From: a virus
Virus record (IMG/VR): IMGVR_UViG_3300048839_001082
Span: 17,523 to 81,522 of that record
Length of the DNA stretch: 64,000 nt
Strand: one strand, 5' to 3'
The notes beneath the pieces are model-generated. The model was not told the DNA's origin. It did no database searches and worked only from the letters and a program-made list of their open reading frames with translations. This document shows, one piece after another, positions 6,692-48,770 of this stretch. Positions within the stretch are counted from its first letter, which is position 1. Each line of letters begins with the position of its first letter. The position numbers and the translations under genes are program-made.

Positions 6692-9600
6692 ATGCCCGGT
6701 GGAAATCCATATGAAGATTATGCAGCATCAGTTGATGCACAATCCGCTGCCGAAGCTGCGGTAGTCCCTGAACAATATAATACAGTAACAATTCCCGGAA
6801 CGGTTTTAAATAAAACTGTTGAAGGTGAAAAGAATGAGTTTTTATTTATTCAACAAGCATTATGTGTAGGACCAATTCAAGGTGTTTATGATGTGTTAAT
6901 TGATGATGGTTTAGGGCTTACTGAACCTTCACTAGGTGCTGCAGGTTATGAAGATTTAGATGCAAAACCACTTTACCAAAGTGCGGCAATGCGTTTTGAT
7001 ATTCATAATGGAAATGGTGAAGAAGCTGATAATATCTTAGTAAAGAATTTTCCATCTAGATACTCAGCTAAATTTCCAAATACTGCGAATGCTTCTATCT
7101 GTGTTAAGCTAGATAGAGAAAATCCGCAATTCAATGGCGTGCCCAATGCGCAATTTTTCATCGAAGGTAAATTAGTAAGAGATATTACAAGGTCAGGCTC
7201 AGTTGGTGCTTATACTTACGCACTCACTGGTTTTGTTTACAGTAACAATTCCGCACTTTGTTTATTAGATTATCTTTTGTTATCGGAAGGTGGAAAAGGA
7301 CTTTCAGCTTCACAGATTGATCTTGAAAGTTTTTATGATGCCAGAATTTTATGTGACACACCCGTATTAGATAATGCTTTAATTGGTGGACGTATTTGGA
7401 GACCTGAATCTGGCAGAAGAAGTGTTTCACAACGAAACCTTCCACTCTATGAATGTAATATTGTAATAGACACTGAAAAGACAATCCGTGAAAATGTCGA
7501 AGCAATTCTTAACACAATGGGAGACGCTCGACTCGTGTGGAGTCAGTCTAAATATAAACTGGTAGTGGCCTACCCTGATTCAAATGCAGCGATTCCATAC
7601 AGCGGTGAAATCACGGATGATGAATTGGTGCTCGGAGAGCCTATTGATATTTCTTGGCCAACTTCCTCAGAACGCCTTAATTTTTGTACAGTTCGGTTCA
7701 GAAATGAATCGATGGATTTTAAAGAGGATTCTGTTTCATGGCCTCCGAAACAATCAGGTACGTACCTCAGAGGAATTGGAGCATATTCTTACCCGATAGT
7801 TACAGGTTGGCCTTTGGGTGAAACTACCAGTGTGTTCATGAATGCGAATGCTGTTTGGACGGGCGGGACAGATAATACATTTGTTTGGAAGTTCGCAGTA
7901 AAGAATTCAGGTGCGCATACTTTAGACATTGCAGTTGATGATGATGGTTTACTCAATGTCAGAAGGAATGGTATTTTAGAAAGCAACGCCACGAATGTCG
8001 GTACTGGTAATAACTGGCGAAACTTCGTAACTCGCAGTTTTAATTGGGTTGAAGATGATATTATTGAAGTTACGATTCTCGCTAACAATTACCAAGGGCG
8101 TATTGCCGGTGTCGCTGGTAGAGTTCTGAATGTTGCCCTTCAAGCTCAGATATGGACCACGAGGTCACCTGCTTATACTGATTTTGTTACAGTTAACCAA
8201 GATAAAACAGTTTATGATGAATTTTTAACTGAAGATAATAATATTCTTCTTGAAGCAGATATCTTCGCGGACGGTATTTCAGATTATTACCATGCTTTGG
8301 CGAAAGCTGAGGAAATGGTTAGAACAAGCAGAAGCGCATTTATTATTGAATTCACTTACAAAATTAAAGATAGATATTACGAACCGGGTGACTTCGTTAA
8401 ATTGACCAGTTCTACTTTGAATTTTGATGAATTGCCTTTAAAGACCGATGAGATTAAATCAAAAGACGATTTCACGGCTACTGTGAAGGCTACCAGATTT
8501 GACTATACTCAGTTAGCTTGGAATGTAAATGATAATGAATACATTGCTCCGAAAGCTGCCTACGATTTTCTTTTAAATGCTCCGAGTGAAGTCGTTTTGG
8601 ATCGTGAAATAATCTCTAACTTACAATCTTCAGGAACAGTTCGGTGGAAATCAACAGGTGATTCTAAGATAATTGGGTATATTGTTTATGTAAATAAAGG
8701 TGGTGATAACGATGCAAATGGTTATCCTTTGTTTACTGAAGTGGGCAGAACTGGAATAAGTGAAGAATTCGAACTTCCAACCCTAGGCTATATGTATGGC
8801 GGTGTGGGTGTTAAAGCAATTTCTAATACATCCAGTTCAAAAATGACGGTTAACGCACAAGTCATTTTTAATAATCGTAAAATTGCATTGACAAGCAGCG
8901 ATACACAGTTTATTAGAAGAGGTCCTGTTGATGAACCTAGTACAATAACACTGACAGCACACATTGCCGGATATGTGAATCCAGTGATCCATTGGTACAA
9001 GAACGATGTGCTTTTGCCTGACTCTTCAACAACACTTGTTATTTCTTCAGATCCTGATGGTCTAAGTGTTGTTTATAGATTAACAGTTGAAGAATCAGAA
9101 TTTGTTTGGAATGGTGAACACAGAACAGCTCTCTATAGTACAATTACCATAGCCACACTGTCTGTCGGAAATGCGGCATTTACGGACTACATATTTAGAC
9201 GTGCTTTAACTATGCCGGCAACACCTACAGAACAAGGGATGCCGGCAGGGTGGTACGACACGCCTCCCACACCAAATGGAAATCCATTATGGGTAACGTG
9301 GGCTGAAAAAGATTCTGATGGTTTCCTGATCACATCTTGGGTCACTCCCGTGAATATTGAATCGGGTGATATTCATGTTCAATATAGTAAAGATGGTATT
9401 GCTGATTGGCATGATGTATTTGCTCCCGGCGATCTTTTCATTCATTACAATGTGAATGGAGGGGCTTGGTCAGCAGCGATACAAATTTCTTTTGAAGGTA
9501 TTGATTATTTAACAACTCATTTCATATTCACACGTTCCTTACTTGACCCTCCAGCTCTTGATAATACCGCAGATGAGCCTGTCGGATGGCTTGATGCGCC

Positions 9601-17163: not shown

Positions 17164-17448
17164 GTTCTGTGGGTAACTCCTACGGCGTGGTGGTCACCAC
17201 GAAATAAGTGACGCCTTCGACAGGTATGTCGACCCAGTCTTACAAAGGGGTATTAATACTAGTGAGGGCGGCTAGCACCGTCTCAATTGCGATGAGTAAC
17301 CATGCTAGTGGTCTCATGTCGGATTCGTAACCGACACAGCTGGTAGGCTATCCCTTCTACCGCCGGCTAATGAAATGAAGGAACCCATCTGAAATATGGT
17401 GGGACCACTTAAGCATCTTCGAAAGAGGGTGGTTTACAGGAGAAAACC
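17164..17448 (+). other. Structured non-coding region
   Basis: No gene is supported in these 285 bases, but many inverted repeats are. Around 17190 CGTGGT pairs with ACCACG inside a wider GGCGT/ACGCC pairing. A two-hairpin unit sits at 17292-17335. A further GGTAG...CTACC hairpin lies near 17341-17361. The region leads into the gene at 17449 and probably forms a folded leader or small RNAs. Confidence 0.45.
17292..17335 (+). repeat. Two-hairpin RNA element, copy C (divergent)
   Basis: ATGAG (17292-17296) pairs with CTCAT (17313-17317). Immediately after, GTCGG (17318-17322) and CCGAC (17331-17335) enclose the loop ATTCGTAA. The second hairpin matches those of the copies at 17741 and 19615 in size and in the GTAA loop end, with a compensatory change in the stem (GUCGG/CCGAC against GCCGG/CCGGC). 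Its first hairpin is different, so it is the most distant member. Confidence 0.4.
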
Positions 17449-17673
17449 ATGTGCGAGCTTTGTGTTCTCGGGGGTTGGCCAGAAGGTGAATGCTTCTGGA
17501 GTGAAAAGAACAAGAACGAGGAATCAATCATGATTGACTCGATCATGATTCACGACGACGCGGCCGCGAATGATCTTCTCGCGAGTGAGCGTCTCGATCT
17601 GTTGTGGGAATACGTCTGTGATTTCTACAGTACACCCAGGCAGACTTACGCGCGTTTTGTTTTCGGGGTTTGA
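17449..17673 (+). CDS. Hypothetical protein, 74 aa
   Basis: ATG is preceded by CAGGAGAAAACC, a strong ribosome-binding site. The N-terminus has CELC, and the rest is acidic and helical. G+C content is higher than in the flanking tail genes, as in most genes from 17.4 to 21.3 kb. No family is recognised. Confidence 0.55.
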   Translation: MCELCVLGGWPEGECFWSEKNKNEESIMIDSIMIHDDAAANDLLASERLDLLWEYVCDFYSTPRQTYARFVFGV

Positions 17674-17740
17674 ATACATGCATGGTGCTGACCCTGTGCA
17701 TGCTAAGCCTCCGACGAGGCGGAGTCAGCTAGGAAAAACT

Positions 17741-17776
17741 GTGTCACCGAATTGACACGCCGGATCAGTAACCGGC
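17741..17776 (+). repeat. Two-hairpin RNA element, copy A
   Basis: Hairpin 1 is GTGTCA/TGACAC with loop CCGAAT; hairpin 2 is GCCGG/CCGGC with loop ATCAGTAA, directly adjacent. The copy at 19615 has the same architecture with a completely different but complementary first stem. This copy lies 34 bases ahead of the AcrIII-1-like gene. Confidence 0.55.
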
Positions 17777-17792
17777 ATTAATTTTTTTTTTT
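17759..17792 (+). terminator. Rho-independent terminator or attenuator
   Basis: The second hairpin of the repeat (GCCGG, 8-nt loop, CCGGC) is followed after ATTAA by a run of 11 T (17782-17792). That is the pattern of an intrinsic terminator, placed just upstream of the ring nuclease gene, so it may act as an attenuator. Confidence 0.6.
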
Positions 17793-17809
17793 CGACCAAA
17801 GGAGTCAAA

Positions 17810-18106
17810 ATGACGAAGTACATCGGAAATGCGTTTTCTCTGGCGATGGTCCGCGATGAGGATCTAAATAAGGTCTTCATGGTCCCTTGCATGGAGCCTG
17901 ATAGTCGTGAGTGTGTGTCCGTGGTTGGACACGCGGATACGGCGGCCATGCTGGGTGTTGCCTTCAATCGGGTCAGTCTTCAACTCGAGCCTGGCGACGA
18001 ACTTTATGTTGCCCAGTATCAAGGAGGACGGCTTCCTGAGGGTGCCACAACGTTGCCGGAGGGTAGTAGTTTCCGGTGGATCCTTGTTAGTGTTAGAGAT
18101 TTTTAA
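17810..18106 (+). CDS. DUF1874/AcrIII-1-like ring nuclease, predicted anti-CRISPR
   Basis: A 98-aa protein matching the DUF1874 pattern of viral AcrIII-1 (SIRV1 gp29-type): a short N-terminal strand region, VVGH..TA.ML at residues 38-48, NR at 53-54, GD at 62-63 and GRLPEG at 73-78. AcrIII-1 enzymes degrade cyclic tetra-adenylate, the alarm signal of type III CRISPR systems; their conserved catalytic His corresponds to H41, and the Arg/Glu of RLPEG to R74 and E77. ATG follows AAAGGAGTC. The terminator-like RNA upstream may regulate it. The assignment is by motif order and length; activity is inferred. Confidence 0.78.
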   Translation: MTKYIGNAFSLAMVRDEDLNKVFMVPCMEPDSRECVSVVGHADTAAMLGVAFNRVSLQLEPGDELYVAQYQGGRLPEGATTLPEGSSFRWILVSVRDF

Positions 18107-18115
18107 GGAGAGCAC

Positions 18116-18292
18116 ATGCAAATGCACATCGGGCAAATGTCCAAGCCGAAAGGCACAATGAAATCTCCCGCTCAAATGCGAGAGATGTCCGAGGCTCTGA
18201 ATAAGAGTATTAGGAAACATGCGATGGACAATCATTGGGGAAGCCAACCAACGACATTTCCTGAAACAACCCGTAACCAACGAAAGGACTGA
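18116..18292 (+). CDS. Hypothetical Met-rich micro-protein, 58 aa
   Basis: ATG at 18116 follows AAGGAGAGCAC, an excellent ribosome-binding site. The protein is basic and Met-rich (eight Met) with a helical centre (QMREMSEALNKS). It sits 9 nt after the ring nuclease gene and touches the next start, so the three form an operon. No family is recognised. Confidence 0.55.
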   Translation: MQMHIGQMSKPKGTMKSPAQMREMSEALNKSIRKHAMDNHWGSQPTTFPETTRNQRKD

Positions 18293-18294
18293 TG

Positions 18295-18561
18295 ATGTCA
18301 AACGACAAGAACCTCGGTAAGTTCATGGCCAAGATCGCCATGTCTGCCGATGAGGCGACCAAGGAAAGCATTCGTGCTTTCCAGGAAGAGCTCAAGCAGC
18401 GCAATCAGGAGATGATCCTGAACAAGCTGAGGGAGGTCCACACGTTGATTGAACGTCAGGTGCAGAACTTGCGTGCGTTGCGTGCACGCGAAAAGACTCA
18501 TCTGGCTGAGATTCGTCGTCTGGAGGACTTGGCGAACAGCATCGTCTCCGGTAAGGAGTGA
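18295..18561 (+). CDS. Hypothetical coiled-coil protein, 88 aa
   Basis: Nearly the whole protein is one charged helix with heptad periodicity (LRALRAREKTHLAEIRRLEDL). The ATG at 18295 has the better spacing from AAGGA; an ATG 3 nt upstream overlaps the previous stop. It is the last gene of the ring nuclease operon. No family is recognised. Confidence 0.6.
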   Translation: MSNDKNLGKFMAKIAMSADEATKESIRAFQEELKQRNQEMILNKLREVHTLIERQVQNLRALRAREKTHLAEIRRLEDLANSIVSGKE

Positions 18562-18884
18562 TGTTGCGCGGGGCATACCGATGATCGGCACCGCGTTATA
18601 AATAAGTCGTGAAACGGTACGTAACGGTTCTCACGGACCGTTCGTCTATGCTATATTAAATTAAACTTTATAGGGTATAGCTTGAGTCTTGATGACCAAA
18701 AAGCCGCCCCTCGCCTTGTGCAAAATCTCAATCCGTCCTCGTGACGGAGGCAGCCACCCCGTACAATCTTTATGGTCCTTTATCAGAACTATAATAGATG
18801 AAAAGGTGGAACCACTGCCTTAAGCGTCCCAAGTGGATTCTTAAGGCAGTGCAATTGTGCTCTGCAACGACCAATGGAGTCGAT
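18562..18884 (+). other. Structured non-coding region
   Basis: This is intergenic sequence with several hairpins: CGCGG/CCGCG (18567-18595), AACGGT/ACCGTT (near 18616-18635), an inverted repeat GCTATA/TATAGC flanking an AT-rich core (18650-18682), and a 12-bp stem at 18813-18851. A TATAAT-like sequence occurs near 18789 without a good -35 box. No gene is seen. Confidence 0.4.
18813..18851 (+). ncRNA. Strong hairpin, 12-bp stem
   Basis: CACTGCCTTAAG (18813-18824) pairs perfectly with CTTAAGGCAGTG (18840-18851) around a 15-nt loop. No T tract follows, so it is not a simple terminator. It could stabilise or process the transcript. Confidence 0.4.
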
Positions 18885-18977
18885 ATGCTCGTACGTCTGA
18901 AGAGTGACCGGAGTGTTGTAACCTGGATGTCCATTGAGCATTTGGAACATCTGTGGCATCGGTGGGAACCTGCGTAA
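18885..18977 (+). CDS. Possible micro-ORF, 30 aa
   Basis: ATG follows GGAG with 6-nt spacing, and the frame runs 30 codons with several Trp and His residues. Its end overlaps the hairpin CCTGCGT/ACGCAGG (18969-18987). It may be a leader peptide or chance; support is weak. Confidence 0.25.
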   Translation: MLVRLKSDRSVVTWMSIEHLEHLWHRWEPA

Positions 18978-19001
18978 TTAACGCAGGAAGCTGATAGTTA
19001 G

Positions 19002-19024
19002 GGCATCGATCAAAAGTCGGTGCC
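19002..19024 (+). terminator. Hairpin upstream of 19052 gene, possible terminator
   Basis: GGCATCGA (19002-19009) pairs with TCGGTGCC (19017-19024), 8 bp including one G-U, and is followed by TTAAAATC. The following T content is weak, so it may be a processing site rather than a terminator. Confidence 0.3.
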
Positions 19025-19051
19025 TTAAAATCAGTTTAACAAGGAGACTGT

Positions 19052-19285
19052 ATGGATTCAAGAGAGACTGCCCATTTTGTGGAAGGTGCGATGATGGAGT
19101 ACTATCGTCGCAACGAATGGAATCCTGAAGACTATACTCGGTATACTCAGGAAACGATCAATAAGGTCTGGAGGTATCTGACTCAACCGAGTCAAACCAT
19201 TGATGCGTCTTACACGGATATTCAAGCGCACATCGCGCTCGAAGCAGGTAAGATTCATTTTCCGCAAAGTCTCAAGCGCCGCTAG
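19052..19285 (+). CDS. Hypothetical protein, 77 aa
   Basis: ATG follows AAGGAGACTGT. The protein is soluble, acidic and aromatic-rich at its N-terminus, with a basic end (SLKRR). Its stop TAG lies inside the tRNA-Arg gene: the last 10 bases of the CDS are the first 10 of the tRNA. No family is recognised. Confidence 0.55.
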   Translation: MDSRETAHFVEGAMMEYYRRNEWNPEDYTRYTQETINKVWRYLTQPSQTIDASYTDIQAHIALEAGKIHFPQSLKRR

Positions 19286-19351
19286 CTCAGGGGATAGAGC
19301 AACGGCCTTCTAAGCCGTAGGCCGCTGGTTCGAATCCAGCGCGGTGCGCCA
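19276..19351 (+). tRNA. tRNA-Arg (anticodon UCU)
   Basis: A full cloverleaf is visible: 7-bp acceptor stem GCGCCGC/GCGGTGC, D arm, anticodon stem ACGGC/GCCGT with loop CTTCTAA (anticodon TCT), T arm GCTGG/CCAGC with TTCGAAT, and an encoded CCA. It reads AGA codons, common in AT-rich phage genes. It overlaps the end of the preceding CDS by 10 nt. Confidence 0.95.
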
Positions 19352-19353
19352 GT

Positions 19354-19445
19354 TAACGAACGATGAGATGACGGGTTAGCGCCGTCATTGGTCAGAAGAC
19401 TCCTTTCTCCGTAAACGCTGCTTCATGCGAGCTCATCGTTCGTTA
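19354..19445 (+). ncRNA. Long-stem structured RNA after tRNA-Arg
   Basis: TAACGAACGATGAG (19354-19367) and CTCATCGTTCGTTA (19432-19445) are perfectly complementary over 14 bp. The enclosed sequence begins with a 7-bp hairpin, ATGACGG/CCGTCAT (19368-19388). The element starts 2 nt after the tRNA CCA end, so it may be co-transcribed and released by tRNA processing. No known RNA family is recognised. Confidence 0.5.
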
Positions 19446-19614
19446 TTCTAACTGTCCTGCTCGGATACGTCCCTGAGAGTATTGGACGAAAGGCATTAAA
19501 AGCAGCTGAGACTTGGTTGCAACTCATGAGGCAGCTGTGCTATAAGTCGATCGAAATCTGGGAAGAGCCGGGATGTCTGTGTCCCGTAGTAAGAAAACAG
19601 AATAGGTTGAGACT

Positions 19615-19653
19615 GTACTGCCGAACCAGTACGCCGGAAGGACAGTAACCGGC
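19615..19653 (+). repeat. Two-hairpin RNA element, copy B
   Basis: Hairpin 1 is GTACTG/CAGTAC with loop CCGAAC; hairpin 2 is GCCGG/CCGGC with an 11-nt loop ending CAGTAA, then CAT. Relative to copy A the first stem is replaced by a different complementary pair, while loop, linker and second stem are kept, which is strong evidence for a selected RNA structure. It ends 25 nt before the proposed start of the next gene. Confidence 0.55.
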
Positions 19654-19678
19654 ATCCTACAATTGCATGGAGAATGAT

Positions 19679-19987
19679 GTGACAGATTTCAGTAAACCTT
19701 TTGTTGTAAATTCGAATCCGTTCGGCTCTTTCGGAAGGGACTTTGAGAAGCTCGTTCCGAGACTCGAAGACATTCCTGAAGATTTCGATAATAAGCGTAA
19801 GTGGGAGGAGTGGCAGTCTGAATGGTTTTTCTCAGGTCTGACACCGACTCCGACACCTCGCCCTGGAATTGATGTCGATTTGGCATTGCGACATCTCGCC
19901 GCAATTCAGCGTTCGTGGGAACCAAAGCACGAGCACAAGCAGATCTACGTAGCCTATCTTGCCAGTCTCTGGTTTGAACATCCTTGA
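19679..19987 (+). CDS. Hypothetical protein, 102 aa
   Basis: The GTG at 19679 is preceded by GGAGAA at good spacing; an in-frame ATG at 19667 lacks a ribosome-binding site. The protein is acidic with a Pro/Thr-rich stretch (LTPTPTPRPG) and a His/Lys/Trp-containing C-terminal helix. It follows RNA element copy B. No family is recognised. Confidence 0.55.
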   Translation: MTDFSKPFVVNSNPFGSFGRDFEKLVPRLEDIPEDFDNKRKWEEWQSEWFFSGLTPTPTPRPGIDVDLALRHLAAIQRSWEPKHEHKQIYVAYLASLWFEHP

Positions 19988-22072: not shown

Positions 22073-23639
22073 TTGAAATCGAGAGTAGTGGCTTCATTGA
22101 CTCGGAGAATTACCACTGAAGCTGTTCTGCAAGCTCAGTTACGATTCTTAAAAGAGCATGATGTGAACTCTTATGTAAATACTGTAATTTCTACATTATA
22201 CTTGTACACAAGACCTAAAAAGGGTTACGAAACAACTTCTGTTTACATGGCTGAATTGATTTCTGCCTTGGGTCATGGTGTGCGAACAAAACTTAAGCTC
22301 AAAAGAGACTCCAATGCCGCTGCTAAACTAGGTGCATTTTTATTATATACATTCGAAGAACTTGGTTATATAAAAGTGATATTGGGTGTGGGAACGAGAC
22401 ACGCCACTTATATCGTGACTGTAACCAATGACAATGCAATAGTATCGATGTGGAGTGCGATGGAAGCTTCTCATATTGAGAAATTACCGTCCGGAACTCC
22501 ATATGCTCCTTGGACCAGCACAAAACATAATGCTGGAATTCGAATGGTGAAGACTAATGATAAAGGAGTACTTGATAAAATCGCTCCTGAAACTCATCCA
22601 ATTTTATTCAATGTACTTAACAAAGCTCAAGCCGTCGGTTGGAGAATTCATAAAGAGATTTACGACCTTCATGCATGGGCGCTAAGGAATAAAACGGATG
22701 CATTTGCCGATATTTGGGAACAACAAAATCCCGAAGCGAAGGCTACGAAAATAAGAGAAGTTAAAGCCATCGGCGAAATGGCAAAGAAGTTTCTTAACAG
22801 TCCAATATATCATCTCTATTATTATGATTTTCGTGGTAGGAAATACACGAATACAGCTTATTTACATGAACAGGGTAATGATCTGGCCAGAGCTTTACTC
22901 CAAAGAATTGACGAGAAGAAAATAGGCAGAGCAGGTTATTGGTGGATGCTGGTATCAATTGCGTCAAATTGGGGTGGTGATTCTGGCAGACTTGATGGAC
23001 TAAAAACTGATAAGATTCCCCTTCAAGAACGTTATTTATGGGCGTTAGATAATGAAGATATTTTATTGGCATATGCTGAAAAGCCTAAGGTACATCAAGG
23101 TTGGATGAAGGCTGACAAACCTTGGCAGTTTCTCGCAGGATGCATTGAGCTAAAAAGACTCAGAGAATGGCAGTATCAATACGGCAGTGTTAAAAACCCA
23201 TTTGAAGATTATAATTATGAATCTCACATGGAAGCCTACATTGATGGTAGCAATAATGGTTCTCAACATCTGGCTGCTTTGACGCTGGATGAAGTCACGG
23301 CGCCTCACGTAAATTTGGTTCCGTTAGAACTTCCAGGAGATCTCTATTCTTATGTGGCCGGACATGTATGGGACCATCTGCATGAGCTCTTGAAAGATTA
23401 TCCAGAAGAAGAACGTGAAGACTGTGAAATCTTTATCGATAACTTGATAGAATTGAAGAAGAAGATAACTGCGGCCGAGCCTAAAAGCGATGTGAGAAGA
23501 GAATTAATAGCTTCGATTCAAACTTTTAAAGAGGCTAATCAATATATTCTAGATAAATCTGCCGCGGTGTATTGGTACAGGATCGAAGATAATAAGCACA
23601 AAAGAAAGATCGTGAAGAGAAACGCGATGACAATTCCGT
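22073..23639 (+). CDS. T7-like RNA polymerase, exon 1
   Basis: Exon 1 encodes 522 residues and the first base of a split Tyr codon. It shows the single-subunit RNA polymerase order: an N-terminal domain, YYDFRGRKYTN, motif A YIDGSNNGSQH (catalytic Asp, T7 D537), and the start of motif B, KRNAMTIP (T7 K631 region). The start is TTG behind AGGAGTCGTC. The frame stops at 23644 only by reading into a group I intron. Spliced to 24150, the enzyme is 748 residues, shorter than T7's 883 mainly at the N-terminus. It should transcribe phage genes from its own promoters. Confidence 0.92.
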
Positions 23640-24149
23640 TGTAAAGGCGGAAGTAAAAGAGGGTGAATTCAGTGGACATCCATTCGCTGTGGACAATACT
23701 GAGCCGAGCCGTTTAAACGGAAGGTGCAACGACTATCATGTAGGGCAGAAGTCTGCTCGAAGCCCCCTCCACTCCTTGAGTGATGATATAGTCTGGTCTG
23801 CATAGTAATATGCAGCTGTATTAAGCAATTGGTATGAATATGAATTGGAACGAAATCTTTATCTACAACGCAGATGGCAGTTTAACGAGGCGTTATTCAA
23901 ATAATCAGCATAATACTGTTGGCTGGATAAATAGTTCAGGTTACAGAGGTGTTGTTAGAACTAAAAATAATAAATTTCAAGCACGTTTAACGCTAGAAGG
24001 TAAAAAGCTTTACTTAGGCTTGTTCGATACGCCCAAGGAAGCTTTTGATTGTGTTGAAACTACACGTAAAGAGTTGTACGGCGAATTTGCAACTCTTAGA
24101 TAAATTGCTTAATACGGGTGAAGATTAACGAACTTCATTGAACACAACG
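23640..24149 (+). mobile_element. Group I intron in RNA polymerase gene
   Basis: The 5' exon ends in T (CCG-T) and the intron ends in G (CACAACG), as group I splicing requires. The R-type core GGTGCAACGACTAT (23723-23736) and S-type core GATATAGTCTG (23785-23795) form P7. Joining 23639 to 24150 restores motif B as KRNAMTIP-Y-GGTSYG, as in T7 (KRSVMTLAYGS). An AP2-type ORF lies in the 3' part. Confidence 0.9.
23834..24103 (+). CDS. Intron ORF: AP2 DNA-binding domain, homing endonuclease remnant
   Basis: An 89-aa protein whose second half is an AP2/ERF-like DNA-binding domain (SGYRGVVRTKNNKF, then LYLGLFDTPKEA and ELYGEFA). In phage introns this domain is normally the C-terminal part of HNH-AP2 endonucleases. 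Here the N-terminal 30 residues keep only an ADGSLTRR-like start and lack the HNH nuclease residues. It is probably a decayed homing endonuclease, or now a DNA-binding protein only. Confidence 0.7.
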   Translation: MNMNWNEIFIYNADGSLTRRYSNNQHNTVGWINSSGYRGVVRTKNNKFQARLTLEGKKLYLGLFDTPKEAFDCVETTRKELYGEFATLR

Positions 24150-48485: not shown

Positions 48486-48770
48486 ATGGAACGCGTCACG
48501 TTGCACGGAGAAACATTTTTCGTGGTTCATCCGGTCGATCGACTAATGTCAAGTCATATGGTTCGTGAAGTGGTCGAATCTGGCGCTCGATTCGTGGTCA
48601 ATGCTAGAACAAGTGAATTGACCATTGACCGATCGGCCGTGAAGCAAAATGCTTCAATTTCTGTCACTGAAGATATTTATAAACGACTTGAGGTACTCAC
48701 GAAACAATTTCAATCAGCACTCAATGAATTAGCCGAGATTCGCAAAGAAATTTCCCTTCTTAAGAGGTGA
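48486..48770 (+). CDS. Hypothetical protein with C-terminal coiled coil, 94 aa
   Basis: A beta-rich first half and a coiled-coil end (LNELAEIRKEISLLKR). The start follows GGAATAAAT. No family is recognised. Confidence 0.55.
   Translation: MERVTLHGETFFVVHPVDRLMSSHMVREVVESGARFVVNARTSELTIDRSAVKQNASISVTEDIYKRLEVLTKQFQSALNELAEIRKEISLLKR

Follow-up and report, generated by a model that had tools for sequence, protein, structure and literature searches.

A phage RNA family of adjacent covarying hairpins, and its probable copies ahead of two genes in an environmental viral genome

Two hairpin pairs and their neighbouring genes

We analysed a 64-kb stretch of viral DNA (hereafter the window), which comprises bases 17523-81522 of an 81,522-base IMG/VR virus record, and focused on two short elements within it, copies A and B, each formed of a hairpin (H1) directly followed by a second hairpin (H2). 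Both copies sit ahead of open reading frames (ORFs) and not tRNA genes, with a tRNA-Arg gene located upstream of copy B. The features at this locus are given below, where R1 and R2 are covariance models described later.

17735-17740, plus strand: linker of copy A, AAAACT, its CU end immediately 5' of H1 in the R2 alignment
17741-17758, plus strand: H1 of copy A, GTGTCA-CCGAAT-TGACAC, 6 bp, read from the sequence and matched by R1 and R2
17759-17776, plus strand: H2 of copy A, GCCGG-ATCAGTAA-CCGGC, 5 bp, directly adjoining H1
17782-17792, plus strand: T11 run, five bases (ATTAA) after H2 of copy A and with 17 bases between it and the start codon of the following ORF, listed as terminator-like
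17810-18106, plus strand: gene after copy A, encoding a DUF1874/STIV-B116/Csx16-like protein, a candidate CRISPR type III ring nuclease
19609-19614, plus strand: linker of copy B, GAGACT, its CU end immediately 5' of H1 in the R2 alignment
19615-19632, plus strand: H1 of copy B, GTACTG-CCGAAC-CAGTAC, the second-ranked window match of both R1 and R2
19633-19653, plus strand: H2 of copy B, GCCGG-AAGGACAGTAA-CCGGC
19667-19987, plus strand: gene after copy B, phrog_36680, function unknown (PHROG E 8.6e-20)

An earlier reading of these letters, the original prediction, had proposed this hairpin order together with covariation in H1, and the sequence confirms both. In each copy H1 consists of a simple 6-bp stem capped by a CCGAAY hexaloop, and four of its six pairs differ between copies A and B on both strands with pairing kept, while H2 ends in CAGTAA-CCGGC in both. 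Homology between the copies also reaches upstream into the linker, with TAGGAAAAACT in copy A and TAGGTTGAGACT in copy B. The pattern GCCGG..AGTAACCGGC is present at two sites in the window, which are copies A and B only, and at none in 100 shuffles, and likewise the CAGTAACCGGC core is found only at these copies in the whole 81.5-kb record. The gene after copy A had also been called as a ring nuclease, and as a candidate this holds, with a Pfam match below the cut-off (E 1e-3), a PADLOC match to Csx16 (E 4e-4), and 45% identity to the DUF1874 protein of phage THSA-485A in tblastn (E 3e-16).

An RNA family in tRNA arrays and gene leaders

Using a scan of IMG/VR for the H1 loop together with the H2 core we identified 49 stretches, mostly within phage tRNA arrays. 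Here an RNA of ~155 nt is fitted between two tRNA genes of a large array, and has H1 and then directly H2 at its 3' end. Measured from the end of the CAGTAACC core, the upstream tRNA usually terminates ~155 nt earlier and the following tRNA begins ~13 nt later (10 nt after H2), with spacing between H2 and the next tRNA usually of 4-13 nt, although some members precede ORFs instead of tRNAs. Further upstream these RNAs contain a P1 hairpin whose loop pairs with downstream sequence (P2) and a second pairing between a loop and downstream sequence. In the full-length set of 26 sequences the named helices, pseudoknots included, were 94.9% paired with 16 of 19 pairs compensated, compared with at most 43% pairing in controls slid by 1-3 columns, and in the 3' domain alone (the R1 set) 99.3% were paired with six of 11 pairs compensated. 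Single-sequence folds of relatives did not reveal the pseudoknots and their energies were unexceptional. The original prediction had described a two-hairpin leader, and while the module does precede genes, that description is too narrow because the same module closes this pseudoknotted RNA between tRNA genes.

A further IMG/VR scan using a different H2 stem revealed a second subfamily, in non-coding sequence ahead of an Hsp20 gene, and at the one locus tested a RegA-family gene lies upstream, which suggests that these hsp20 leaders come from T4-like phages. The module is also followed by hsp20 in an AT-rich contig (L172), and elsewhere it precedes tRNA-Leu (L260), a 238-residue ORF (L052), a gp44-like clamp loader gene recognised from its sequence (L044), a ParB-like gene and various ORFs, and the distance from the module to the start codon of hsp20, gp44 and others is ~10-60 nt. 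Leaders of the hsp20, gp44 and L082 groups (the R2 set) were 99.4% paired, with seven of 11 pairs compensated. Members of the L044/L065/L082 group had been considered as possible ORF ends, but we retained them in the family because on that strand the motif lies in no open frame of at least 60 residues (L044, L082; L160, L176) and their stems covary. CU lies immediately 5' of H1 across the listed subfamilies, and the family core is thus CU followed by hairpin H1 and a directly adjacent H2 (GGAU..CAGUAACC). In the tRNA-array and T4-like subfamilies H1 is marked by a bulge of 1-2 nt on its 5' side, together with a C-G pair and a pentaloop.

The claim of a phage RNA family with covarying stems is therefore borne out well beyond the window phage, with strong covariation in the R1, R2 and full-length sets, and this H1-H2 family, which is present in other environmental phages too, is not registered in Rfam. 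The original prediction knew of no RNA family with this pattern, and comparison with Rfam 15 gave no family at or above the curated threshold for copies A and B in the window or for the tRNA-array RNA. Likewise, blastn of the family RNAs against annotated phages returned no full-length relative, a limited literature search found no description of the family, and the exact tRNA-array motif was absent from 84,980 species genomes, in a scan that would miss divergent copies. Recurrent structured RNAs that covary strongly across phage groups and have no Rfam family are uncommon, and this one offers a clear consensus, a testable fold and neighbours that invite tests, namely gp44, the candidate ring nuclease, the tRNA arrays and an hsp20 gene preceded by a ROSE-like thermometer.

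Two other IMG/VR scans were less productive. One used the exact H2 core GCCGG..CAGTAACCGGC and gave mostly chance matches, several at apparent ORF ends, where CAG TAA reads as Gln-stop, and matches within ORFs were set aside; a few were located in non-coding DNA shortly 5' of tRNA genes. The other, for the CCGAAY loop of the window itself, gave no convincing relative.

Several smaller features accompany the module in these loci. A hairpin that separates H2 from the ribosome-binding site of hsp20 (L226:9430-9493) resembles the ROSE_3 thermometer, with an E-value of 3e-4 that is below the gathering score, and on this basis the ROSE-like reading replaced an earlier one of this hairpin as a terminator. 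It is a separate neighbour directly after the module and not the module itself, ROSE has no match in the window, and similar hairpins are seen in the same place in ~15 related loci. In four loci (L149, L151, L152 and L185) an inserted long hairpin (e.g. TGTTATAAAACGGCTAATA...TATTAGTAGCCGTTTCATAACA) separates H2 from the following tRNA and moves the tRNA from ~13 to 58 nt from the core, and in four others (L121, L083, L023 and L125) a hairpin TTCCCGCGCC-AAAA-AGCGCGGATAAACC lies upstream of H2. We take the latter to resemble a type I-E CRISPR repeat, and it is possibly an RNA anti-CRISPR or a product of chance. A COG2908 RNA (RF02939) was also found inside a large phage tRNA array (L057:8322-8366), and matches to permuted and alphaproteobacterial tmRNA were present in two contigs that also bear the module (L065:4027-4455 and L082:6519-6878).

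Matches of the window copies to the family

R1 was built from 27 tRNA-array RNAs with the window excluded, and was used to scan the window with filters off, while R2 derives from 16 leaders in the hsp20, gp44 and L082 groups, includes neither the window nor any tRNA-array RNA, and shares no sequence with R1; the E-values of both are rough. With R1, copy A was the top match in the window (17723-17776, 23.4 bits, E 8.7e-6) and copy B was second (16.6 bits, E 1.5e-3), and this order was repeated with R2, with copy A at 17735-17776 (25.1 bits, E 1e-4) followed by copy B (18.7 bits, E 4.7e-3). R2 also recovers tRNA-array RNAs, with a best E-value of 8e-9. Furthermore, copies A and B share with other subfamilies the CU directly 5' of H1 and an H2 loop ending in CAGUAA and then CC.

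Upstream of copy A there is also a structure that the original prediction missed. We applied a pseudoknot descriptor to the 110 nt before H1, using dinucleotide shuffles and tiling of real sequence as controls, and this located the following helices.

17677-17702, plus strand: P1 hairpin of copy A, CATGCATGG (17677-17685) pairing with CTGTGCATG (17694-17702), 9 bp
17687-17729, plus strand: P2 pseudoknot of copy A, GCTGAC in the P1 loop (17687-17692) pairing with GTCAGC (17724-17729)
17707-17720, plus strand: P3 hairpin of copy A, GCCTC-CGAC-GAGGC, flanked by P1 and the 3' strand of P2

P1, P2 and P3 are in the family order, the P2 layout is the same as in the tRNA-array RNAs, where P2 covaries, and the score was equalled in five of 3000 dinucleotide shuffles. 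Copy A appears to close a larger structure at its 3' end, with these helices at 17677-17729 as the upstream part, although this predicted layout is supporting and not decisive evidence, because among 1568 tiled windows of real sequence one other (ending at 48700) attains the same score. In the 110 nt before H1 of copy B we detected no significant equivalent of P1, P2 and P3 (447 of 1500 shuffles).

A third copy, C, had been proposed at 17292, and is best described as a doubtful region.

17301-17367, plus strand: copy C region, TGTCGG-ATTCGTAA-CCGACA (17317-17336), then AGCT-GGTAG..CTACC-GCCGGC

An H2-like hairpin is indeed present here, but the region was not significant with R1 (E 2.8) or with R2, where 17301-17335 had an E-value of 1.3 and 17336-17367 one of 0.33, and we do not count it as a member.

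Possible action of the module

The original prediction was of a regulatory RNA of phages, and of this the family is real and unregistered, while a regulatory role is what we infer from structure and position. The module repeatedly precedes a gene on the same strand, whether tRNA or protein-coding, at a distance of between a few and several tens of bases, and this fits a cis-acting intercistronic leader, which would fold in the nascent transcript and change the fate of the downstream gene, in the case of copy A the ring-nuclease-like ORF. The likeliest routes would be keeping RNA polymerase from stopping, as with the HK022 put RNA, or setting or protecting a processed 5' end. Put is an antitermination RNA of ~70 nt with two adjacent stem-loops ahead of phage genes, an arrangement that the module shares, yet put is much larger than H1 and H2 together and its stems are long and interrupted (PMC9378689). 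Antitermination of this type would suit long untranslated tRNA arrays, but put-like action in particular is an analogy that we regard as quite unlikely to be correct. The explanation as a whole, in which copy A, and copy B by paralogy, belong to the family and form cis-acting intercistronic leaders, is in our estimate evenly balanced between right and wrong, and action of the module in cis falls just short of an even chance. If cis action were true, the module would serve many phages as a portable control element. A broader proposal, that it represents a widespread and unregistered class of phage RNA which on its own affects RNA polymerase or RNA processing, and is common to unrelated tailed phages ahead of array tRNAs, hsp20, clamp-loader and candidate anti-CRISPR genes, is rather unlikely.

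Several observations weigh against this explanation. In a control of 20 records the best R1 site outside the family reached 17.0 bits, inside a coding gene of a relative of the window phage (L190), a site that had been considered as an orthologue and was ruled out as a clear false positive, and among sites picked for an exact H2 core R1 gave up to 18.7 bits in coding DNA, so that copy B scored no better. Copy A stands above this noise, and copy B, which alone is within the range of chance sites, therefore rests on its paralogy with copy A. H1 in the window is without the 5' bulge, C-G pair and pentaloop of other subfamilies, which makes the window copies a variant of the H1-H2 family. The element was not found near the polymerase gene or elsewhere in the records, some of them possibly fragments, of the five nearest relatives of the window phage, which were picked by their RNA polymerase (47-61% identity), so it looks accessory in this lineage; the comparison of stems among related phages, raised with the original prediction, neither supports nor refutes it. 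In L082-type members the next ORF was found only 334-345 nt away, the tight spacing between module and gene may merely reflect compact phage genomes, and the fit of the ~155-nt RNA between tRNAs suggests an RNA that is cut out and works in trans.

We weighed three other explanations of these data. A purely fortuitous resemblance of the window copies to the family would agree with the scores of copies B and C, which are within the noise of R1 and R2, and with the lack of copies in the nearest relatives, but copy A ranks first in the window with two models that share no sequence, carries the pseudoknot layout upstream, and is accompanied at a distance of 1.9 kb by a paralogue whose stems are compensated, and H2 was matched in none of 100 shuffles. 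We consider such a coincidence highly improbable, and conclude that copy A very probably belongs to the family and that copy B probably does. The main rival, somewhat unlikely in our view and yet the strongest of the three, is that a stable small RNA, acting in trans and freed by processing of the flanking genes like RNAs C and D of T4, has the module as its 3' domain. Such an RNA would account for the way in which the array RNA fills the gap between tRNAs (~155 nt upstream and ~13 nt downstream of the core) and for its elaborate pseudoknotted fold, and in T4 a pair of stable RNAs (139 and 119 nt) is annotated beside the tRNA genes. However, many members adjoin a ribosome-binding site and not a tRNA, and although both are structured RNAs of phage tRNA clusters, we found no fold or conserved sequence common to the module and T4 RNAs C and D; homology to RNA C was accordingly dropped, and in T4 R1 gave only an E-value of 0.1 elsewhere and R2 gave nothing. 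If the RNA were excised and stable, it would join the old puzzle of RNAs C and D.

In the remaining explanation the module would be a transcription attenuator or riboswitch that responds to some signal by governing an intrinsic terminator upstream of the following gene, as might be expected from the T11 after copy A and from the hairpin and T-rich stretch after H2 in hsp20 leaders. The T run at the end of copy A, noted in the original prediction, is present, but ATTAA separates it from the stem, so that H2 of copy A and T11 would probably make a poor intrinsic terminator. Inspection of the sequence after H2 of copy B showed no T run, nor is there one in most tRNA-array members, and the hsp20-leader hairpin resembles a ROSE thermometer and not a terminator. 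With the T run of copy A set off from its stem and none after copy B, we consider attenuation very unlikely.

Two other known systems can be compared with the module. In tRNA-array members H1 has a GAAAA pentaloop closed by C-G, and in this it resembles the boxB hairpin of lambda-type nut sites. However, window H1 has a CCGAAY hexaloop, H1 of other members is 5'-bulged and H1 is joined to H2, and no boxA was noticed by eye. GOLLD and ROOL are structured phage RNAs, often near tRNA genes, which differ in being several hundred nt long and in having Rfam families.

The window also contains five tRNAs and a gene for a T7-like RNA polymerase, among whose best annotated relatives is that of the Naomviridae phage DSS3_VP1 (31% identity). 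A group I intron match (23619-23815, 63.6 bits) falls where the first RNA polymerase ORF (22073-23644) ends, so an intron may interrupt the polymerase gene. Three long stretches of non-coding DNA, at 17164-17440, 18562-18800 and 19352-19660, contain several hairpins (fold z-scores of -2.4, -2.0 and -1.5, respectively) and are possibly further structured RNAs, and in the relative L190 an intergenic stretch at 7130-7300 contains the pairings CCAGACT/AGTCTGG and GACGGC/GCCGTC, which are suggestive of another pseudoknotted RNA.

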